A stretch of 64,000 nucleotides of DNA from Phycicoccus sp. Lineage in GTDB: Bacteria; Actinomycetota; Actinomycetes; Actinomycetales; Dermatophilaceae. Location: contig JAGOME010000005.1 in NCBI GenBank assembly GCA_017993715.1, positions 1-64,000 on the forward strand. The letters run 5' to 3'. Below, piece after piece: positions 18,911 to 30,631 of this stretch (position 1 is the first letter of the stretch; each line of letters begins with the position of its first letter). The notes beneath the pieces were generated by a model that saw only the letters and a list, made by a program, of their open reading frames with translations, did not search any database and was not told where the DNA came from. Both the position numbers and the translations under genes were made by a program.

Positions 18911-21900
18911 GTGCGAGGGGAAGCCGAGGTCCAGGACCGAGGAGTTGCCGCGACGGCGACTCCCCACCGGCTCCCGAGCGTGTTCGCGGGGCTGGTCACC
19001 CTGGCCGCCTTCTGGTCGCTGATCTCTATCCCGTTCGATGGCGCAGGGTGGGTTGACAAGGCCAACGACGTCTTCAAGTTCGTCGGGATCCCGGCCTCGC
19101 CGAGTCTCTTCCTGGCCGGGGCCTTGGCGATCCTCGGCGGAGCGCTGCGGCGCCGGCTGGCGATCGCCCGCCGGGTCGTGTTGGTCTTCGAGTGGCTCTC
19201 GCTGGTGGCTTTTGTGGTGGCCTGGATCGCTGTGGTCCTGTCCGAAACCGGCGACCTCACCGGTGGCGACGCCGTGGACCTGGATACCTGGAGCGCCGTA
19301 GTCCTCGGCGCGGGCACGCTGGCCGCCCTGATCCTCGTGGTCCTGTTCACCCGTGCGCGAGCACAGTTCCCCGCGCGGACCCGACCTGGGGCCTGGCGGA
19401 CGGCCCTCGTGGTGCTCGTCCTCGGCCTGGCGGTGGCCACCGTCGTGGTGGCGGTGATCGCGTTCATCGTGCCGGGAACGCTCGAAGGCCCCGGCGAGAC
19501 GCTGGTCTGGGCGGTGCAGGCCACGACTGAGGTCACCTTGCCCATCGACCCACTCCCCGCCGGGCATGACGGCCCGGCATGGCTGGCGGTCCTCGGGGGG
19601 CTCCTCGCCGGTGGCGTCCTCCTCGGCGCCGTGGCCACCTATCTCGGGTCCGTGCACCGGGCCGAACTGATGACCGCACCTGACGAGCTCGCGGTGCGCG
19701 CCCTGGTCGCTGCCCATGGTGAGGCCGACTCGCTCTCGTACTTCGCCACCCGACGAGACAAGTCGGTGGTGTTCTCGACGGACGGCCAGGCAGCCGTGAC
19801 CTATCGGGTGATCGGATCGGTCTGTCTGGCATCAGGTGATCCGGTGGGTGATCCGGCGTCCTGGTCCGCGGCGATCAATTCCTGGTTGGGCCAAGCGCGG
19901 GGCTTTGCCTTCCACCCGGCCGTCATCGGGGCCTCCGAGTCCGGGGCAGAGGCGTATGTTGCCGCGGGTCTACGTGCCCGGGAGCTCGGCGACGAGGCGG
20001 TGCTGATCGTTGAGGACTTCGCCTTGGCGGGGCGGGCGATGCGCCCGGTCAAACGCGCCGTCAGCCGAGTCGCTGGCCAGGGATACACGATCTCGGTGAT
20101 CCGCCACGGCGACCTCAGCGCCGCGGAGCTGACCGAGCTCGGTGCGCTGGCCGATGGGTGGCGCGGCGATGAGCCTGACCGTGGCTTCTCCATGGCGCTG
20201 AACCGGCTTGGCGATCGCGCCGACGGCAGCAGTGTGGCGGTGATCGCCCGCAACCGCGACGGGCACATCACGGCGATCCAGTCGTATGTTCCGTGGGGAC
20301 GGCGGGGCCTGTCATTGGACCTTATGCGTCGCGACCCGCAGGCTGCCAATGGCGTCAATGAAGCCCTCGTGGTGGGGCTGGTCGAGGCCTGCCCTGACCT
20401 TGGGGTGCGACAGATTTCGTTGAACTTCGCGATGTTCAGGTCGGTCTTTGCTGGGGCGGATCGCGTGGGGGCCGGGATCGGGGTCCGGCTGGCCGACCGA
20501 GTGCTGACTCTGGCGGATCGCTTCTGGCAGTTGGACTCCCTGTATCGCGCCAACGCCAAGTACCTGCCGGAATGGCGCCCGCGTTACCTGTGCTTCGACT
20601 CCGTCGCCGCGCTGCCGCAGGTGGGGTTGGCCATGGGGGTTGCGGAGGGGTTCTTGCCGGGGCGCGCTCCCACGGTGGCCCGCACCGGCGAGGAGCTGAT
20701 CCCCGACGGCGAGGGTGCGCCCCGGCCCTTTGCCGAGGTCGCCATCGAGCAGGAGCTGCGCCTGTCCGCGCCTGCGGTCGTCGATCGCCGTCGGCCACAG
20801 CAGGAGCTGGTTCGCCTGCGCAAGGCAGAGCGGCTGCGCGAGGCGGGGATCGAGCCCTACCCCGTGCAGGTCGCTCGGACGGGATCGCTGGGGGCAGCCG
20901 CCTCTGCAGCCCGGAGTGGGGCGACCGATCCCATGTCGGTGACCGGTCGCGTGCGTGCCGTTCGCGACTTCGGCGGTGTGCTGTTCGCGGTTCTGGAGGA
21001 GGACGGCCACATCCTGCAGGCGTTGCTCTCCCGCGCTGACGTCGCCGATCAGGGAATGCCGCTGTGGCGCCGCAGCGTGGACCTCGGCGACATCGTCTCG
21101 GTGACCGGTCCCCTCGGACGCAGCCGACGCGGCGAGCCCTCGGTGCTGGTCACTACCTGGGCTATGGCGGCCAAGTGCCTGCGGCCGTTGCCGGGGGTCA
21201 GGGCCGGGTTCACCGATCCCGAGGCCCGCGTGCGCCAGCGCGCGGTGGACCTGATCGTCAACCGGTCGTCGGTGGAGATGCTGCAGGCTCGGTCTCGAGG
21301 GATCGCGGCGATGCGTGCGGCATTCGCGGCCCGGGGGTTCCTCGAGGTGGAGACCCCGATGCTCCAGGCGGTCCACGGCGGGGCGACCGCCCGCCCGTTC
21401 CGGACCCATATCAACGCCTACGACGCCGACCTGTATCTGCGGATCGCCCCCGAGCTCTTCCTCAAGCACCTCTGCGTCGGGGGTATGGCGCGGATCTTCG
21501 AGCTCAACCGGAACTTCCGCAACGAGGGCGCCGACGCCACCCACAACCCCGAGTTCACCTCAGTGGAGGCGTATGCCGCCTACGAGGACTACACGTCTAT
21601 GCGGCACCTCACCCGCGATCTCATTCTGGCGGTCGCGACGGCCGTGCACGGTGAGCCGGTTGCTTTGCAACCAGGTCCCGATGGCAGCGTGGAACGGGTC
21701 CGGCTCGACGGCGAGTGGCCGGTCATCTCGGTGCATGAGGCGGTGTCGCGGGCCTGCGGGGTGACGCTGACCTCGGCCGCGAGCATCGAGCAGGTGCGGG
21801 TCGTCGCAGACACGCACGGCATTCACCTTCCGGCCGGCATGACCAGCGGCGAGGCGGTACTTGAGCTGTACGACGAGCTCGTCGAGGGGCAGACCCGGTT

Positions 21901-22264
21901 CCCGACCTTCTACACAGACTTCCCGCTGGAGACGTCGCCGCTGACGCGCACCCATCGCACCGATCCGCGCCTGAGTGAGCGATGGGACCTGGTCGCCTTC
22001 GGAGCCGAGATCGGCACCGCCTACAGCGAGCTCATCGATCCGCTGGATCAGCGTGCTCGCCTGGTTGCTCAGTCCCTCAAGGCGGCGGCCGGGGATCCCG
22101 AGGCGATGGAGGTCGACGAGAACTTCTTGGCCGCCCTCGAGTACGCGATGCCTCCGACGGGTGGTCTGGGGATCGGGGTGGACCGGATGATCATGATGCT
22201 GACCGGGGCAAACATTCGGGCCACGCTGGCCTTCCCGTTTGTCCGTCCGGGCGACGAGCGCTGA
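18911..22264 (+). CDS. lysX: Bifunctional lysylphosphatidylglycerol synthase / lysine-tRNA ligase
   Basis: This 1117-residue membrane protein has three parts. Residues 1-250 hold about seven hydrophobic segments. Residues about 250-600 form an MprF-type transferase domain (DUF2156) that moves lysine from lysyl-tRNA to phosphatidylglycerol. Residues about 640-1117 are a class II lysyl-tRNA synthetase with an OB-fold, motif 2 (FELNRNFRNEGADATHNPEF) and motif 3 (GLGIGVDRMIM). The fusion corresponds to LysX of mycobacteria, which lowers surface charge and protects against cationic peptides. A separate housekeeping LysRS is expected elsewhere. GTG 18911 has TAGCCT at 6 nt. Confidence 0.93.
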   Translation: MRGEAEVQDRGVAATATPHRLPSVFAGLVTLAAFWSLISIPFDGAGWVDKANDVFKFVGIPASPSLFLAGALAILGGALRRRLAIARRVVLVFEWLSLVAFVVAWIAVVLSETGDLTGGDAVDLDTWSAVVLGAGTLAALILVVLFTRARAQFPARTRPGAWRTALVVLVLGLAVATVVVAVIAFIVPGTLEGPGETLVWAVQATTEVTLPIDPLPAGHDGPAWLAVLGGLLAGGVLLGAVATYLGSVHRAELMTAPDELAVRALVAAHGEADSLSYFATRRDKSVVFSTDGQAAVTYRVIGSVCLASGDPVGDPASWSAAINSWLGQARGFAFHPAVIGASESGAEAYVAAGLRARELGDEAVLIVEDFALAGRAMRPVKRAVSRVAGQGYTISVIRHGDLSAAELTELGALADGWRGDEPDRGFSMALNRLGDRADGSSVAVIARNRDGHITAIQSYVPWGRRGLSLDLMRRDPQAANGVNEALVVGLVEACPDLGVRQISLNFAMFRSVFAGADRVGAGIGVRLADRVLTLADRFWQLDSLYRANAKYLPEWRPRYLCFDSVAALPQVGLAMGVAEGFLPGRAPTVARTGEELIPDGEGAPRPFAEVAIEQELRLSAPAVVDRRRPQQELVRLRKAERLREAGIEPYPVQVARTGSLGAAASAARSGATDPMSVTGRVRAVRDFGGVLFAVLEEDGHILQALLSRADVADQGMPLWRRSVDLGDIVSVTGPLGRSRRGEPSVLVTTWAMAAKCLRPLPGVRAGFTDPEARVRQRAVDLIVNRSSVEMLQARSRGIAAMRAAFAARGFLEVETPMLQAVHGGATARPFRTHINAYDADLYLRIAPELFLKHLCVGGMARIFELNRNFRNEGADATHNPEFTSVEAYAAYEDYTSMRHLTRDLILAVATAVHGEPVALQPGPDGSVERVRLDGEWPVISVHEAVSRACGVTLTSAASIEQVRVVADTHGIHLPAGMTSGEAVLELYDELVEGQTRFPTFYTDFPLETSPLTRTHRTDPRLSERWDLVAFGAEIGTAYSELIDPLDQRARLVAQSLKAAAGDPEAMEVDENFLAALEYAMPPTGGLGIGVDRMIMMLTGANIRATLAFPFVRPGDER

Positions 22265-22271
22265 GGGCGGC

Positions 22272-23477
22272 TCAGGCCACGCTGCGGTTGCTGCGCGCTA
22301 GGAGGACCACGCGCAGCGCGCAGGCCCGACGCACGATGCTTGTGGCGGCGTCGAACGCGTTCTGGCGCAGTCGCGCATCGGTGGCCGAGACCAACGCGTA
22401 GTTGAACCCGGAGAAGGCCGCGAGGAAGCCGGCCACCTTGAGGTGCTGCCAAGCGACGAAGTGGGGCTGTCCGCCGATGGTCCAGGAGAACAGGATCTCC
22501 GGTTGCTGCTTGGTCCAGGTCTCGATCGGGACCGTGCCGACGGCAATGAAGCCCAGGATGACAAAAACGAAAAAGACGACCACAGCCAGGACTGTCGCGG
22601 TGACGAGCCGCGAGACCACCGCGACAAATCGCAAGTTGGCCTCCTGTCGCCAGTCCAGAGGCGTGGTCGTCGGCGCGGCGACGGCGTCCGCATCGGCGGC
22701 AAAGTCCGTCTCGCCCAGGGCCGAACGTACCTCGTCGACGTCAGCGAACGTGGCCAACGGATCGACCTGGAACTGGCCGCGGCTGCCCAAGAAGAGGCCC
22801 GCCAGCAGCACCAGGAAGCCGACGAGCCCGATGAAGGAGAGGCTGTCCAGGCTCGAGATGGCCAGCCAGACCCCCGGATTGAGAAAGAAGAAGAACGTGA
22901 ATCCGAGCAGGACCGGGATGACGGCTGCCAGCGCGGTGGTCGTATCGGCGAGGGCCCGGTTGAGCTGACGGACCAGGAGGCTGGCCAGTGACCCGATGCC
23001 GGTCATGATGAAGACCCACACCAGCACGAGCAGCAGCGCCTGAATAGCCGCGGCAATCAGGGCCGCGGCGAGGCGACCCTCGGCCCCGGTGAAGACGAGA
23101 TCCACGTCGAGGTCCACGGTCTGCGGGACGCTGCCGGCCAGGAGCATCGGCACGAGGACGAAGGCCAGAGCCTCGCCGATGCCGATGCGCTTCACCGGCG
23201 CGAAGCGGGGAACTCTGTTGACTCGGTTGGAGATCAGCCACGTCACGAGGATGCTCACCAGGGCGAGCAGGACCCCTTGCCAGATCTCCAGATCGGGGCT
23301 CGCGACCGCGGTGAGGACCATCATCACCAGGAACAGCAGGGTCAGGACCGGGGCGGCCAAGCGTGCGGTGCTGGCGGCATACCCCGTGCCGCGCATCATG
23401 GAAATCAACCCATGCTGGCGAAACCACTTCTCGGCCTGGAGCGCCTCCGCCTTGGTCAGCGCGGCCCGCGTCGTCAT
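22272..23477 (-). CDS. Unknown polytopic membrane protein
   Basis: I do not recognise the family. The 401-residue product starts with a polar, helical stretch (ALTKAEALQAEKWFRQHG) followed by about eight hydrophobic segments in two blocks: residues 30-230 and 305-390. A soluble acidic linker around residues 250-300 (PLATFADVDEVRSALGETDF) separates the blocks. ATG 23477 is used; an adjacent in-frame GTG at 23480 is equally possible and lies 8 nt from a TAACGT box (23494-23489). It ends 8 bp from lysX, convergently, and diverges from the next pair of membrane protein genes. Confidence 0.7.
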   Translation of the reverse strand: MTTRAALTKAEALQAEKWFRQHGLISMMRGTGYAASTARLAAPVLTLLFLVMMVLTAVASPDLEIWQGVLLALVSILVTWLISNRVNRVPRFAPVKRIGIGEALAFVLVPMLLAGSVPQTVDLDVDLVFTGAEGRLAAALIAAAIQALLLVLVWVFIMTGIGSLASLLVRQLNRALADTTTALAAVIPVLLGFTFFFFLNPGVWLAISSLDSLSFIGLVGFLVLLAGLFLGSRGQFQVDPLATFADVDEVRSALGETDFAADADAVAAPTTTPLDWRQEANLRFVAVVSRLVTATVLAVVVFFVFVILGFIAVGTVPIETWTKQQPEILFSWTIGGQPHFVAWQHLKVAGFLAAFSGFNYALVSATDARLRQNAFDAATSIVRRACALRVVLLARSNRSVA

Positions 23478-23488
23478 CACGAGCCCAC

Positions 23489-23556
23489 ACGTTAGCGCGG
23501 GCTGGGCGCAGTGGGCGGCGCGCATTCGTGCGCCTGGTCTGCCGATCGCCTACGTT
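23489..23556. promoter_or_regulatory. Divergent leaderless promoters of two membrane-protein genes
   Basis: TAACGT (23494-23489, minus) serves the gene ending at 22272. TACGTT (23551-23556, plus) lies 7 nt before the ATG at 23564. Confidence 0.45.
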
Positions 23557-23563
23557 TTTGGGT

Positions 23564-24667
23564 ATGCCGCAGTCCACGCCCTCGCCCGCCGTCGTTCCCC
23601 GGGTGACCGCGGTCCCGTCGATCCTGCTGTTTAGTGTTGCGTGTGCTTTGACTATCGCCCTCACCCGCGTCTATTTGGTGTTGACCGGGTACCCGCAGAT
23701 CGGCGGCGCCGTGTTCCACTTGGCGCACGCGCTGTGGGGCGGACTCGCCCTGATCATTGCCGTCGTCCTGCTGATCAGCGTCTCTGACACCTGGGTGATG
23801 ACGTGGGGGGCGCTGCTTGGGGGCGTCGGGGCAGGCTTGTTCGTCGATGAGGTCGGCAAGTTCATCACCCAGGAGAACGACTACTTCTTCCCTCTGGCCG
23901 CCACGATCGTCTATCTCTTCCTGGTGGCCCTCGCCGGAGCCACGCTCTGGTTGTCCCGGCTGAGTCGGACCTCCGCCCGTGCCCACCTGCATGCCGCGCT
24001 CGAACTCGCGGCCTACGCCGCGGATGACCACCTGAGCGCGGCGCGGCGCGCCTCGATCAATGCTCATCTTGATCGGGCCCGTGCATCCAATCCCTCACCG
24101 GGGCAGCTGGACCTGATCGACGCGCTGGACCGGACGGTCGGTTTTGGGGTCGACAACGAGCACCGCCAGCTCGTCGAGGACAGTCGGTGGGAGCGGTGGC
24201 TGCGGTCCTTGTCCCCCGATCGTGTCCGCAAGCTCGCGCGAGCCTTGCTCAGCATCCAGGTGTACATCGGGCTCCTGGCTTTGGTCCTGGTGCCGCTGGC
24301 CCTCTGGGAGGAGTTCCCGATCGTGCCGGACCTCGTCAACGCGGTGGAGGTCGGGGGATTCGGGAAGACGATGACGTACGTCTCGTATGCCGCCATCGTC
24401 GTGGCCAGTGCCCTGGCCCTGATCGCGGTCATTCGCCTGCGGCCGAGGCGCGTCCAGCCGGAGTCGGCCATTCGCTACGGGATGACGAGCATGGTCATCC
24501 TGCTCGTGGTCGCCAACGCGCTCGGCTCGTATACGAGCCAGTTCCAGGTGTTGGGCGAGGCGATCTTCCAGGCCTGCACCATGGCCGCCCTGTTGCTCTG
24601 GCGCGAGCTGCTCCGCGAGGAGGCTTCCGCTGCGGCAGCGAAGCACCAGATGACGGGCCGGTCCTGA
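23564..24667 (+). CDS. Unknown membrane protein A, with HxxHxxWG / GVGAxLxxDE module
   Basis: A 367-residue membrane protein of no family I can name. Segments 1-4 (residues about 18-45, 50-75, 80-100 and 105-130) carry H52-x2-H55-x2-W58-G59, then GVGAGLFVDE ending at D95-E96, then E104 and Y107. A cytoplasmic helical region of about 110 residues follows, then four more hydrophobic segments (residues about 225-350). The first module is repeated, with the same spacing of key residues, in the next gene. ATG 23564 has TACGTT 7 nt upstream. The stop is 2 bp before the next ATG, so the two genes form one operon. Confidence 0.75.
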   Translation: MPQSTPSPAVVPRVTAVPSILLFSVACALTIALTRVYLVLTGYPQIGGAVFHLAHALWGGLALIIAVVLLISVSDTWVMTWGALLGGVGAGLFVDEVGKFITQENDYFFPLAATIVYLFLVALAGATLWLSRLSRTSARAHLHAALELAAYAADDHLSAARRASINAHLDRARASNPSPGQLDLIDALDRTVGFGVDNEHRQLVEDSRWERWLRSLSPDRVRKLARALLSIQVYIGLLALVLVPLALWEEFPIVPDLVNAVEVGGFGKTMTYVSYAAIVVASALALIAVIRLRPRRVQPESAIRYGMTSMVILLVVANALGSYTSQFQVLGEAIFQACTMAALLLWRELLREEASAAAAKHQMTGRS

Positions 24668-24669
24668 CC

Positions 24670-25458
24670 ATGACCTGGGAGTTGGTCGTGCCGTCGGGCC
24701 GGCTGGCCGTGTTGTGGCTGCTCGTGGCCTTCGTCCTGACGACCATTGCCACTCGGGCGGTCACCCGGCATATTCGCGCCAAGGAGGGCGAGCCCGCGGC
24801 GGCCCAGACCGAGCCGGGCGGCGCCGGTCTGATCAAGAATGTCCACATCGGGGGCGTCCATGTCCACCACCAGGTCTGGGGCATCCTGCTCTGCCTGCTG
24901 ACCGGATTGCTCTTGGTGACGTACCACCCCCAGCCTGGCTGGGGCCTGAACGCGCTGGCCGTCGCCTTCGGGGTCGGAGCGGCCCTGGCCCTGGACGAGT
25001 TCGCCATGTGGCTGCACCTTGAGGACGTCTACTGGAGTGCCGAGGGCCGTAAGTCGATCACGGCGCTGATGACGGCCGGGGCGATCGCCCTGGTGCTGGT
25101 CCTCGGAGCGGACCCCTTGGACCTGGGCAGCGAGGACAACGCCGGGATCCCGGCCTGGGGCGTGGCCGCGTTCGCCCTGATCAACCTCGGCTTCGCCCTG
25201 ATCTGCATCCTCAAGGGCAAGAACCTCGTGGCCCTGATCGCCGTGTTCATGCCCTTCGTCGGGCTGGTCGGCGCGATTCGCTTGGCCAAACCCGGGTCAT
25301 GGTGGGCCCGCCGCCGGTATCAACCTGGTTCGCGCAAGGAACGCCGCGCCGCGCGGCGCTTCGATCAGGCCTATCACGACCGGTGGCGCAAACTGCACGA
25401 CGCCATCGGCGGCGAACCCACGGTCATCGACCCCGAGGGAGCCGACCGTCCCGGCTAG
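24670..25458 (+). CDS. Unknown membrane protein B, paralogous module to protein A
   Basis: A 262-residue protein with about seven hydrophobic segments and a basic C-terminal tail (RKERRAARRF). A loop enters the membrane with IGGVHVHHQVWG: H64-x2-H67-x2-W70-G71, plus extra histidines H59 and H66. GVGAALALDE follows, ending at D109-E110, with E118 and Y121 at the same offsets as in protein A. The clustered histidines and acidic residues near membrane faces could bind a metal, but that is inference. It starts 2 bp after protein A and is surely co-transcribed with it. I recall similar unnamed integral membrane proteins in other actinobacteria but no assigned function. Confidence 0.75.
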   Translation: MTWELVVPSGRLAVLWLLVAFVLTTIATRAVTRHIRAKEGEPAAAQTEPGGAGLIKNVHIGGVHVHHQVWGILLCLLTGLLLVTYHPQPGWGLNALAVAFGVGAALALDEFAMWLHLEDVYWSAEGRKSITALMTAGAIALVLVLGADPLDLGSEDNAGIPAWGVAAFALINLGFALICILKGKNLVALIAVFMPFVGLVGAIRLAKPGSWWARRRYQPGSRKERRAARRFDQAYHDRWRKLHDAIGGEPTVIDPEGADRPG

Positions 25459-25483: not shown

Positions 25484-25819
25484 CTAACCGCCCGACGAGC
25501 GGGTGGCCGCGGTGTGGTCGTAGTCCTCGTCCAGGAGATGCTCGGCGGCGGACACCAGCAGGGGCGGGATCGTGGTGTCCCCGCGGCGGATGTGGGCCAT
25601 GAGTTCGTGCCGCATCCGCGGTGGCCAGAACTTTTTGATGTGGGTCGCGATCTCTGCGGCGGCAGCGTCTGGAGCCAGCGGCGAAAAGGCCCGCACGAGA
25701 TCGGCGCCCATGCGCAACGCGCCCGTCCGCCCGGCGTGCGCGATCCCCTCGTGCAGTGCGGCCGGGGACTCGGGGGCTACCGGCAGGTCCAGGCCGTCCG
25801 GATGTGCCGATCCGCTCAT
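25484..25819 (-). CDS. fdsD: Formate dehydrogenase delta subunit
   Basis: A 111-residue soluble protein resembling FdsD, the small accessory subunit of cytoplasmic NAD-dependent molybdenum formate dehydrogenases. Recognisable parts are LVRMANQI-like LVRAFSPLAP, the segment EIATHIKKFWPPRMRHELMAHI and the C-terminal PPLLVSAAEHL. FdsD is needed for a fully active complex in other bacteria. Its ATG overlaps the fdsA stop as ATGA, so it is coupled to the large subunit. It is the last gene of the operon. Confidence 0.85.
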   Translation of the reverse strand: MSGSAHPDGLDLPVAPESPAALHEGIAHAGRTGALRMGADLVRAFSPLAPDAAAAEIATHIKKFWPPRMRHELMAHIRRGDTTIPPLLVSAAEHLLDEDYDHTAATRSSGG

Positions 25820-28635
25820 CGGTCCGCTCCCACATGCTCGGAAGTCTGGTCCTGCGCCGCCCGCACCTCCGCCGTCACCACGGTGGCCTGGACCGCGGTC
25901 ACCTTGTACTCCGGACAGTTGGTCGCCCAGTCTGAGTTCTCTGTCGTCACGACATTGGCCCCGCTCACGGGGTGGTGGAAGGTCGTGTAGACCACCCCCG
26001 CCGGCATCCGCTCCGAGACCAGCGCGGTCAGCCGGGTCGCCCCCACGCGCGAGGCCAGCTCGACCACGTCGCCAGAGCGAATGCCGCGAACCTCGGCATC
26101 GGCGGGGTGAATCTCCAGGACATCCTCGGGGTGCCAGGTCGAGTTGGGGGTGCGCCGGGTCTGAGCGCCGACGTTGTACTGGGAGAGGATGCGACCGGTG
26201 GTCAACACGAGCGGGAACCGTCGGTTGGCGCGTTCGGTCGTCGGGACATACACGGTGGGGGTCAAGGCGCCCAGGCCCCGCACGAACGAGCCCACATGCA
26301 TCGTCGGGGTGCCGTCGGGGGCGGCCTGTGTCACCGGCCATTGCAAGGATCCGTGCTCATCGAGCCGCGCGAATGAGACGCCGGCAAAGGTCGGTGTCGT
26401 GGCCGCGATTTCGTCCATGATCTGACTCGCGTCGGCATACTCCATCGGGTATCCCATGGCGGCGGCGAGGTCGCAGGTGATTTGCCACTCGTCCTTGCCC
26501 ACAAGGCTCGGCATGACGGGACGGACGCGGTTGATCCGGCGCTCGGCGTTGGTGAAGGTGCCGTCCTTCTCCAGGAACGAGGTCCCCGGCAGGAAGACAT
26601 GGGCAAACCGGGCCGTCTCGTTAAGGAACAGGTCCTGGACGACGACCAGGTCCATGGCGAGCAGCGCGGCCTCGACATGGGCGGTGTTGGGGTCGGACTG
26701 GGCGATGTCCTCGCCCTGTACGTACAGACCCTTGAAGGACCCGCCGATCGCGGAGTCGAACATGTTGGGAATGCGCAGTCCCGGGTCGGGCTGGATCGTC
26801 ACGCCCCACAGTCCGTCGTAGATCGCCCGGACCTCAGGCCTGGACACATGCCGGTACCCCGGCAGCTCGTGGGGGAACGAGCCCATGTCGCACGAGCCCT
26901 GCACGTTGTTCTGACCGCGCAGCGGATTGATCCCGACGCCCTCACGGCCCAGGTTGCCGGTCAGCATCGCCAGGTTGGCCATCCCCATGACCATCGTCGA
27001 GCCCTGGCTGTGCTCGGTGACGCCCAGGCCGTAGTAGATGGCCGAGTTGGGTCCGGCGGCATACAGCCGAGCGGCGGCGCGCAGGTCGGCGGCAGGGATC
27101 CCGGTCTCGCCCTGGGTGGCTTCAGGGGAGTGAGCCGGGTCGGCGATGAAGGCCAGGTACTCGTCAGCGTTCTCGCACCGGTCCCTGATGAAGTCCTCGT
27201 CGTGCAGGCCTTCGCTGACGATGACGTGGGCCATCGCGTTGATGAAGGCGACGTTGGTCCCGGGCTGGACAGGCAGGTGGAATGCCGCCTCGATGTGAGG
27301 GGACCGGACGAGGTCGATCCGGCGTGGGTCCGCGACGATGATCTGGGCTCCCTCGCGGATCCGCTTCTTCATCCGCGACCCGAAGACGGGATGGGCATCG
27401 GTGGGGTTGGCTCCGATGAGCAGGATGACGTCGCACTGCTCGACTGACGCGAAGTCCTGGGTGCCGGCGGACGTCCCGAAGGCATGGTTGAGGCCGTAGC
27501 CGGTGGGAGAGTGGCAAACGCGGGCGCAGGTGTCGACGTTGTTGTTGCCGAATGCCGCCCGCACCATGCGCTGGACGACGTAGACCTCCTCGTTGGTGCA
27601 GCGCGAGGAGGAGATGCCGCCGATAGCATCGACGCCGTGGCGGGCCTGGATGTCCCGGAAGCCCTGAGCCGCCCGGGAGATCGCCTCGTCCCAGGACACG
27701 ACCTGCCAGGGCTCGTCGACCGAGTCTCGGACCATCGGCTCGAGCTGGCGGTCCGGGTGGTTGGCGTAGCCGTAGGCGAAGCGGCCCTTGACGCAGGAGT
27801 GACCCTCATTGGCCCCGCCGTCCTTCCACGGCACCATCCGGACGACCCGCGTGTGCGAGCCGGTGCCCTGGACCTCGGCCTTGAACGAGCACCCGACGCC
27901 GCAGTAGGCGCACGTCGTCAGCACGCTGCGTGACGGCATGCCGAGCTCGACGACGGACTTCTCGGTGAGGGCGTCGGTGGGACAGGCCTGGACACAGGCC
28001 CCGCACGACACACACTCCGACGACAGGAAATCTGTCCCGCCCGGGGTGATCCGTGAGTCGAAACCGCGACCCTCGACCGTCAGCGCGAACGTGCCCTGCG
28101 TCTGCGCGCAGGCGCGCACGCACCGTGAGCAGGCGATGCAGGCCGAGGGCTCGTAAACGAAATAGGGGTTCGAGGCGTCGGCCTCGTCGGCGAAATGGTT
28201 GGCGCCCTCTGCGCCATACCGGACCTCGGCCACGCCGGTACTCACCGCGAGCCCCTGGATCTCGCAGTTGCCGCGGGCGCAGCCGAGACAGTCCTGCGGA
28301 TGATCGGACAGGTAGAGCTCCATGACGCCGCGGCGCAACTCACGGACCTGATCAGTCTGGGTAGAGACGACCATGCCGTCGGCACAGGGGGTCGTGCAGG
28401 ACGCTGGGGTGCCCTTGCCGCCCTCGACCTCGACCAGGCAGAGTCGGCACGACCCGAACGCCTTGAGGGAGTCGGTCGCGCACAACTTGGGGATCTCGAT
28501 GCCCGCCAGCGCCGCCGCGCGCATGACCGAGGTGCCGCTCGGCACGGTCACCGCGCGACCGTCGATGTGGACCGTTGCCTCGGTGTCGGCGGACACGGCG
28601 GGTGTCCCCAGGTCGGGTTCGTGGATCAACGTCAC
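25816..28635 (-). CDS. fdsA: NAD-dependent formate dehydrogenase, molybdenum-containing alpha subunit
   Basis: This 939-residue cytoplasmic subunit oxidises formate to CO2 at a bis-MGD molybdenum site. A [2Fe-2S] domain (C52, C63, C66, C80) comes first. A His-Cys [4Fe-4S] site follows (H112, C116, C119, C124), then two ferredoxin-type clusters (C166-C176 and C208-C218) and the catalytic-domain cluster (C242, C245, C249, C281). The molybdenum ligand is Cys374 in ARVCHSPTGYG, not selenocysteine. Electrons pass to the diaphorase pair FdsB/FdsG. Genes fdsG, fdsB, fdsA and fdsD overlap by 4 bp each, so stoichiometry is probably set by coupling. Confidence 0.95.
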   Translation of the reverse strand: MTLIHEPDLGTPAVSADTEATVHIDGRAVTVPSGTSVMRAAALAGIEIPKLCATDSLKAFGSCRLCLVEVEGGKGTPASCTTPCADGMVVSTQTDQVRELRRGVMELYLSDHPQDCLGCARGNCEIQGLAVSTGVAEVRYGAEGANHFADEADASNPYFVYEPSACIACSRCVRACAQTQGTFALTVEGRGFDSRITPGGTDFLSSECVSCGACVQACPTDALTEKSVVELGMPSRSVLTTCAYCGVGCSFKAEVQGTGSHTRVVRMVPWKDGGANEGHSCVKGRFAYGYANHPDRQLEPMVRDSVDEPWQVVSWDEAISRAAQGFRDIQARHGVDAIGGISSSRCTNEEVYVVQRMVRAAFGNNNVDTCARVCHSPTGYGLNHAFGTSAGTQDFASVEQCDVILLIGANPTDAHPVFGSRMKKRIREGAQIIVADPRRIDLVRSPHIEAAFHLPVQPGTNVAFINAMAHVIVSEGLHDEDFIRDRCENADEYLAFIADPAHSPEATQGETGIPAADLRAAARLYAAGPNSAIYYGLGVTEHSQGSTMVMGMANLAMLTGNLGREGVGINPLRGQNNVQGSCDMGSFPHELPGYRHVSRPEVRAIYDGLWGVTIQPDPGLRIPNMFDSAIGGSFKGLYVQGEDIAQSDPNTAHVEAALLAMDLVVVQDLFLNETARFAHVFLPGTSFLEKDGTFTNAERRINRVRPVMPSLVGKDEWQITCDLAAAMGYPMEYADASQIMDEIAATTPTFAGVSFARLDEHGSLQWPVTQAAPDGTPTMHVGSFVRGLGALTPTVYVPTTERANRRFPLVLTTGRILSQYNVGAQTRRTPNSTWHPEDVLEIHPADAEVRGIRSGDVVELASRVGATRLTALVSERMPAGVVYTTFHHPVSGANVVTTENSDWATNCPEYKVTAVQATVVTAEVRAAQDQTSEHVGADR

Positions 28636-30152
28636 GGTCGGGCCTCCTGGCTCATTCCGAAATCCGCGGGGAAGTGGCGCACCGCGCTCTGTACGGGCAT
28701 GGGGGTGAGCCCGCCCATGGCGCAGAGGGAGCCCTTGGTCATCGTGGTGCAGAGGTCATCGAGCAGGGCCAACTGGGTCCGTCGCACACCGTCGTCCGGA
28801 GCCGACCGGATCCGGTCGATGACCTCGACCCCGCGGACGGAGCCGATCCGGCACGGTGTGCACTTGCCACAGGACTCCTTGGAGCAGAACTCCATGGCGA
28901 ACCTGGCCATCGCCGAGGCATCCATCGTGTCGTCGAAGACGACGATGCCGCCGTGTCCGACCATGGCCCCCGCCGCGGCGAATGCCTCGTAGTCCATGGG
29001 CAGGTCGAACTGGTCCGGGGGGAGGTAGGCGCCGAGGGGGCCCCCGACCTGGACGGCTTTGATCGGACGGCCCGAGGCGCTCCCGCCACCCCACTGCTGG
29101 ACCAGCTCACCCAAGGTGATCCCGAAGTCGGCCTCGACAATGCCGCCTCGCGCGACGTTGCCGGCGAGCTGGAAGACCTGGGTGCCTCGGGACCGCCCCG
29201 TGCCCAGCGCGGCATAAGCCGCACCGCCGTCGGCGAGCACCATCGGGACCGTGGCCAGCGTGAGGACGTTGTTGACGACGGTGGGCTGTCCGAACAGACC
29301 CTCCAGTGCGGGGATGGGGGGCTTGGCGCGGACCTCGCCGCGCTTGCCCTCGAGCGAGTCGAGCATGGAGGTCTCTTCGCCGCAGATATAGGCGCCGGCC
29401 CCGACCCGCACGGCCAGATCGAAGGCGTGCCCACTGCCGAGCACGTCCTGGCCGAGCAGACCCCGGGCGTAGGCGATCTCGATGGCCCGGCGCAGGGTGC
29501 GGACTGCCTCGGGATACTCGCTGCGCAGGTACACGAATCCGCGGGTTGCCCCGACGGCATAGGCGGCAATGGTCATGCCCTCGATGAGGCTGAACGGGTC
29601 ACCCTCGATGAGCATGCGGTCGGCGAACGTGCCGCTGTCACCCTCGTCGGCGTTGCAGCACACCCATTTCTGGTCGCCGGCCGCTGTGCGGACCGTCTCC
29701 CACTTGATCCCGGCCGGGAAGCCAGCGCCACCGCGCCCGCGCAGTCCTGACGCGGTCACCTCGGCAACCACGTCCGCGGGGTCCATCGCCAGGGCCCGCT
29801 GGAGTCCGGTCAGTCCGCCATGCTGCTGATAGGCCGTGAGGTCGGTCGGCTCGATGCGGCCCACCCTGGTGAAGGTGACCCGGTGCTGGTCGCGCAGCCA
29901 GGGGTAGTCCTCGACGGCACCGATCGACGGGTGCCTCCCGGCGAGGACCGCGTCGACGTCGGAGGGGGAGAGGTTGGCATACCCAGTGCGGGTGCCGTCC
30001 GGTCCTTCGACTTCAGCGAGAGGCTCGAGCCAGAGCAGGCCGCGTGAGCCGTTGCGGCGCACGGTCGCGCCCGCCGCTGCGAAAGCGTCGGCCACCTCGT
30101 CCGCCCCGACCGATCGGGCGGCTGCGTCGATCGGCACCCAGACCGTCGTCAT
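28632..30152 (-). CDS. fdsB: Formate dehydrogenase beta subunit (NuoF-like, NADH/FMN)
   Basis: A 506-residue NuoF-like flavoprotein carrying FMN, the NAD site and one [4Fe-4S] cluster. The glycine-rich SGLRGRGGAGFPAGIKW motif binds NADH and FMN, CNADEGDSGTFADR is the FMN segment, and ESCGKCTPCRIG supplies three cysteines of the cluster, with a fourth in GSLCAMGG. An extra N-terminal domain of about 100 residues is usual for FdsB and HoxF-type proteins. The ATG at 30152 overlaps the fdsG stop by 4 bp. A longer in-frame extension upstream is read through fdsG and is not real. Confidence 0.93.
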   Translation of the reverse strand: MTTVWVPIDAAARSVGADEVADAFAAAGATVRRNGSRGLLWLEPLAEVEGPDGTRTGYANLSPSDVDAVLAGRHPSIGAVEDYPWLRDQHRVTFTRVGRIEPTDLTAYQQHGGLTGLQRALAMDPADVVAEVTASGLRGRGGAGFPAGIKWETVRTAAGDQKWVCCNADEGDSGTFADRMLIEGDPFSLIEGMTIAAYAVGATRGFVYLRSEYPEAVRTLRRAIEIAYARGLLGQDVLGSGHAFDLAVRVGAGAYICGEETSMLDSLEGKRGEVRAKPPIPALEGLFGQPTVVNNVLTLATVPMVLADGGAAYAALGTGRSRGTQVFQLAGNVARGGIVEADFGITLGELVQQWGGGSASGRPIKAVQVGGPLGAYLPPDQFDLPMDYEAFAAAGAMVGHGGIVVFDDTMDASAMARFAMEFCSKESCGKCTPCRIGSVRGVEVIDRIRSAPDDGVRRTQLALLDDLCTTMTKGSLCAMGGLTPMPVQSAVRHFPADFGMSQEARP

Positions 30153-30631
30153 CGCGACCACTCCGCCGTGACCTGCGCGATGCGCTCCGAGGTAAGGCGG
30201 CCGTGGAGTCGACCGTCGATCTGGCCCGCTGGACCGAGCGCGCAGTTGCCGAGGCAGAAGACCTCGTGGACCTCGATGATGGTGCTCGCCACGGCCTGGG
30301 CTGTGGCGTGGAGCGCGTCCGCTCCGCGGGACTGGCAGGCCTCGCCCCGGCACACGCGGATCTGGTGCGCCGCAGGGGCAGTGGTGCGCAGGTCGTCGTA
30401 GAAGCTGACGACCCCGTGGACGTCGGCTCGGCTGAGGAGCAGGACGTCGGCGATGACCGGCACATCATCGGGGTCGATGTGGCCGAACTCGGCCTGGACG
30501 GCGTGCAGGACTTCCAGAAGTGGTCCCGGCTCATTCACGCAGGCCTGGGCGACCGCGCGGACCCGATCAGCCCGCTCGATGTCACGCGGTGCGGTCAGGG
30601 GCGTGCCACTGGGGTTGTGCGTGGTTCGCAC
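30149..30631 (-). CDS. fdsG: Formate dehydrogenase gamma subunit (NuoE-like [2Fe-2S])
   Basis: A 160-residue thioredoxin-fold [2Fe-2S] protein homologous to NuoE. The four cluster cysteines are in CRGEAC and CLGNC. It pairs with FdsB as the NAD-reducing diaphorase module. The GTG at 30631 follows an AGAGGA ribosome site at 6 nt, so this operon is leadered. It is the first gene of fdsGBAD. The 225-bp region upstream contains a cluster of TGTTGCG repeats that may be the control site. No fdsC or fdhD maturation gene is in the window. Confidence 0.92.
   Translation of the reverse strand: MRTTHNPSGTPLTAPRDIERADRVRAVAQACVNEPGPLLEVLHAVQAEFGHIDPDDVPVIADVLLLSRADVHGVVSFYDDLRTTAPAAHQIRVCRGEACQSRGADALHATAQAVASTIIEVHEVFCLGNCALGPAGQIDGRLHGRLTSERIAQVTAEWSR

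Follow-up and report, generated by a model that had tools for sequence, protein, structure and literature searches.

A four-helix membrane core common to two adjacent actinobacterial proteins, and the linkage of one branch to aminoacyl-lipid synthase genes

In a 64,000-nt stretch of Phycicoccus sp. (contig JAGOME010000005.1, positions 1 to 64,000; hereafter the window), two adjacent genes encode membrane proteins, referred to as A and B, that differ in length and tails and carry similar motifs. This raises the questions of whether the likeness reflects common descent, whether the two genes form a lasting pair, and in which process the proteins take part. The features on which the answers depend are the following.

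18911..22264, + strand: LysX-type aminoacyl-lipid synthase (membrane region, LPG_synthase_C and lysyl-tRNA synthetase), two genes upstream of A
22272..23525, - strand: 417-aa membrane protein between lysX and A, on the opposite strand to both, without Pfam or NCBIfam match
23564..24667, + strand: protein A, 367 aa; four-TM core at about residues 18-135, then a charged linker, then more hydrophobic helices
23717..23743, + strand: A motif at the start of TM2, H52-x2-H55-x2-W58-G59-G60; H52, H55 and G59 invariant in 29 rows, W58 not
23822..23887, + strand: A motif at the end of TM3, G87-x-G89...F93-x-D95-E96-x-G98-K99-F100...Y107-F108; listed residues invariant
24670..25458, + strand: protein B, 262 aa; the same four-TM core (about residues 9-150), two extra hydrophobic helices and a strongly basic C-terminal tail
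24859..24882, + strand: B motif at the start of TM2, H64-V-H66-H67-x2-W70-G71; the three His and the Gly conserved, W70 not
24970..25056, + strand: B motif from the end of TM3 to the start of TM4, G101-x-G103...D109-E110-x-A112...D119-V-Y121-W122...G126-R-x-S129

Both genes are complete open reading frames at these coordinates, and the residue numbers given in the original prediction are all correct, with HxxHxxWG found at A52 and B64 and GVGAxLxxDE at A87 and B101. The TGA of A is followed after 2 nt by the ATG of B, and a search for promoter- or terminator-like sites at this junction returned none. Given such a short gap, co-translation is likely, and A and B look co-transcribed in the window. 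Directly after B, an NAD-dependent formate dehydrogenase cluster (FdsD, molybdopterin subunit, NuoF-like and NuoE-like) occupies positions 25484-30631 of the - strand. The same genome also holds a second B-family gene (G000:C5:25568-26266; L002, L079), which is 38% identical to B and lies beside a rhodanese-like gene, not near lysX.

Homology and conserved residues of the four-helix core

The similarity between A and B is true homology over the four-helix core and not a chance resemblance. The direct BLASTP comparison (E = 0.012) is weak alone. With families collected from whole genomes, comparison of the two family profiles by hhalign gives E = 7e-9 (7 A and 32 B sequences), and E = 3e-8 over 120 columns for larger families (28 A and 67 B). 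The hhalign A-B score is 62.5; 25 block-shuffled B profiles score 26.5 on average and 46.5 at best, none as high as the real one, and a reversed profile scores 24.8. Searches of whole genomes are reciprocal: the A profile matches B members (E 3.5e-5, 8.2e-4 and 1.1e-4), and the B profile matches A members (E 1.1e-6, 1.9e-6, 3.5e-6 and 4.5e-5). The match spans TM1 to TM4 and thus extends beyond the motif alone. That this region is a domain is also indicated by short forms with little beyond the core, such as the 207-aa protein of L011. B-like proteins of 160-210 aa, approximately the four-helix core alone, occur in L011, L101, L105, L200 and L201, some of them on a separate supported branch.

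According to the alignments (29 A and 67 B rows), the signature common to both families is near-invariant and consists of R at the end of TM1, H-x2-H-x3-G in TM2, G-x-G...D-E in TM3, and Y. Residues R35, H52, A54, H55, G59, G87, G89, F93, D95, E96, G98, K99, F100, T102, Y107, F108 and Y117 are invariant in A; those invariant in B are R29, H67, G101, L106, D109, E110, L117, D119, Y121, W122 and S129, with H64 and H66 present in 66 of the 67 rows. The invariant D119 of B precedes the common Tyr and has no equivalent in A. Regarding the motif residues proposed originally, the His pair, Asp, Glu and Tyr are conserved, and W58/W70 and E104/E118 vary.

No match over the curated cut-off was found for A or B in Pfam, NCBIfam, PADLOC or PHROG, no sequence match in PDB, and no significant match in phage and defence libraries. 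Together, the TM1-TM4 profile homology and the common signature define a new, undescribed membrane domain family, which bears out the earlier proposal of an unnamed intramembrane domain in both proteins; its His, Asp and Glu residues listed above prove to be invariant.

By family hydropathy, the core has four helices in A as in B. The His pair opens TM2 and the Asp-Glu closes TM3, so that these residues, like the TM1 Arg and the Tyr, should lie on the same membrane face. The C-terminal tail of B, which comes after six helices, has a mean of 11.2 Lys+Arg; in A the N-terminus and the linker after TM4 are basic, and the loops on the side of the putative site are not. These charges suggest that the site faces outward. 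Judging from helix count and charge distribution, the invariant residues would therefore form one polar site at the outer face. The TM1-TM2 loop of B, with a mean of 4.5 K+R, speaks against this orientation. AlphaFold models, built from window sequences plus one relative (only two and one sequences), reach pLDDT 57 and 55, respectively, too weak to judge the fold or a cone shape of the four helices.

Distribution and phylogeny of A and B

The core tree resolves A and B as separate clades of ancient origin. The 29 A rows and the 66 B rows fall on opposite sides of a 100/100 branch with a very long separation, and each clade also reaches into other classes of the phylum. The genome set contains one genome per species, and genes of the neighbourhoods were called with a simple GC-frame caller. 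In the class sample, B is found in 47 of 148 genomes (about a third) and full-length A in 8 of 148. A survey for co-occurrence of the two, as suggested with the original prediction, finds both in 4 genomes of this sample against 2.5 expected by chance. Of the 26 neighbourhoods read around A, just two have B next to it, namely in the window and, divergently, in L075; in L232 the two are about 17 kb apart. The idea of a duplicated pair kept together is hence rejected on both the ancient split in the tree and the rarity of adjacency, and a co-transcribed pair appears likely in the window, its maintenance elsewhere being unsupported.

Relatives of A and B were not found in viral contigs. On plasmids, B is present only in those of actinobacteria, and no A was found. 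An apparent fusion of a B protein with the uncharacterised membrane domain DUF2254 (PF10011, E 1.8e-67) is observed at L081:7687-9978. The big B open frames of L098, L212 and L235 appear, by eye, to be over-extended.

Linkage of B to aminoacyl-lipid synthase genes

The lysX gene of the window led to a linkage test, in which a B gene, placed at its match midpoint, and an LPG_synthase_C gene counted as a pair if located at most 8 kb apart. Among the 41 genomes holding both, 12 have such a pair against 0.32 expected. Counted by family-level lineage (labels as given by the tool), the values are 6 of 13 against 0.32 expected (P ~1e-7), which includes the window; since the window suggested the test, its lineage is not independent evidence, and five lineages remain without it. 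Thus, B is linked to LysX/MprF-type synthase genes across lineages. In the A neighbourhoods examined, a synthase near A is found only in this window. Neither A nor B is homologous to the synthase itself (LPG_synthase_C, PF09924).

The arrangement of the two genes varies: they overlap on the same strand in L234, are divergent in L207 and L209, stand tail-to-tail in L087, L226 and L253 (one large genus), and B lies near a full LysX in L223, L231 and the window. Such variation among lineages argues against a single inherited accident. In Streptomyces-like genomes the genes are convergent, which is weaker than an operon. The majority of B copies lie away from any synthase gene, and of the 56 genomes with B, 15 lack an LPG_synthase_C gene at E 1e-10, which indicates that B has other roles as well.

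In three of the family-level lineages with linkage, a membrane protein of 270-300 aa is encoded near B and the synthase, for which Pfam reports only weak matches to EamA-type transporters (best E 0.015). The LPG_synthase_C protein of L234 (L234:6443-9085), encoded downstream of B by an overlapping gene, has a sub-threshold rhomboid-like match (PF20401) in its N-terminal half. A conserved membrane gene without Pfam match, denoted c18, occurs in L226:8332-9222, L253:9619-10320, L088, L092, L251 and L252, and adjoins the synthase gene wherever the latter is called (L226, L253 and L092). A comparison of c18 beside Streptomyces synthases with the rhomboid-like segment of the synthase from L234 gave no match.

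Proposed role and alternatives

The aminoacyl-lipid pathway renders actinobacterial membranes resistant to cationic peptides and aminoglycosides, and the linkage of B ties an undescribed family to it, with B as a candidate missing part. No partner family of A/B type is named for MprF/LysX in the literature or family libraries examined. We tentatively favour the reading, to which we give somewhat less than an even chance, that A and B represent two branches of a single undescribed four-helix family and that B acts together with LysX/MprF-type synthases. In corynebacteria and mycobacteria, lysyl-diacylglycerol (Lys-DAG) is the product of LysX, and Lys-PG is believed to require an additional, undefined step (PMC10580965). 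According to the favoured reading, LysX would put lysine onto lipid at the inner membrane face, and B would then move, transfer or remove the aminoacylated head group (Lys-DAG/Lys-PG) at the outer face. The recent finding that LysX makes Lys-DAG left the source of Lys-PG open (PMC10580965). By its genomic context and its invariant His, Asp, Glu and Arg at the putative outer-face site, B is a concrete candidate for the Lys-PG step, or else for export of the product. A more specific form, in which B is an outer-face intramembrane transferase (or hydrolase) moving lysine from Lys-DAG to phosphatidylglycerol in the LysX pathway, and the first member of a new membrane enzyme fold, appears quite improbable.

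Two other readings start from the same genes. B could be a non-enzymatic partner, such as a flippase or an assembly subunit for aminoacylated lipids, which would agree with the gene linkage, with the EamA-like neighbours and with a LysX described with six TM helices (PMC10580965), which we read as lacking the flippase domain of MprF. We consider this unlikely: the invariant His, Asp, Glu and Arg suggest catalysis or metal binding, and forms of four helices only (L011, 207 aa) would be small for a transporter. As for a metal or proton site without direct lipid role, for instance in a metal transporter or sensor, the HxHH, DE and D residues are typical ligands, the neighbours of A are of many kinds, with regulators and an ion channel among them, and linkage to the synthase might then stem from a common envelope-stress regulon. 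However, conserved metal-homeostasis neighbours were not found in the neighbourhoods examined, and the linkage is specific to B and one synthase family, which makes this explanation distinctly unlikely.

The core also resembles the Lipocone superfamily (VanZ, YjdF/Wok and PTDSS), whose members have four helices with His at the start of H2, Glu at the end of H3 and an acidic residue close to these, and act on phosphate-linked lipid head groups at a predicted outer-leaflet site (PMC12419801). This layout led to profile tests against VanZ (PF04892) and Wok/YjdF/DUF2238 (PF09997). In both A and B the hydrophobic core has a His at the start of H2 and, some 41-43 residues further on, a Glu closing H3, and these residues (H55/E96 and H67/E110, respectively) are invariant. 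A also aligns with VanZ in register, DE-x2-K falling on E-x2-Q of VanZ, with a score of 20.3 against at most 16.0 in 25 shuffles. The A-VanZ match, however, reaches only E 0.03, whereas the positive control, Wok against VanZ (two accepted members), reaches E 1e-4. The A-Wok and B-VanZ comparisons (E 0.11 and 0.38, respectively) are within shuffle noise, and the B-Wok match (E 0.043, score 19.7 against at most 19.1 in shuffles) aligns unrelated segments. Moreover, unlike Lipocone proteins, A and B carry a His pair and adjacent Asp-Glu, and the conserved Asp of H4 is lacking in TM4 of A; in B, D119 lies before TM4, and the Asp of SVD varies, being Thr in the B of the window. That the core is a divergent Lipocone member acting on phosphate-linked head groups at the outer leaflet is hence doubtful, and membership is not supported by profile tests with shuffles and a working control, nor by an earlier shallow test. 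The core may still work like a Lipocone member.

Regarding A, a conserved neighbourhood was sought at 26 loci and none was found, save a cell-surface polysaccharide locus shared by three genomes that belong to a single family. The probable role of A is that of a related enzyme or transporter acting on another lipid. In L241, L245 and L246, the locus around the A gene is conserved and also contains glycosyltransferase, LytR-CpsA-Psr, UDP-glucose dehydrogenase and D-Ala-D-Ala ligase-like genes.
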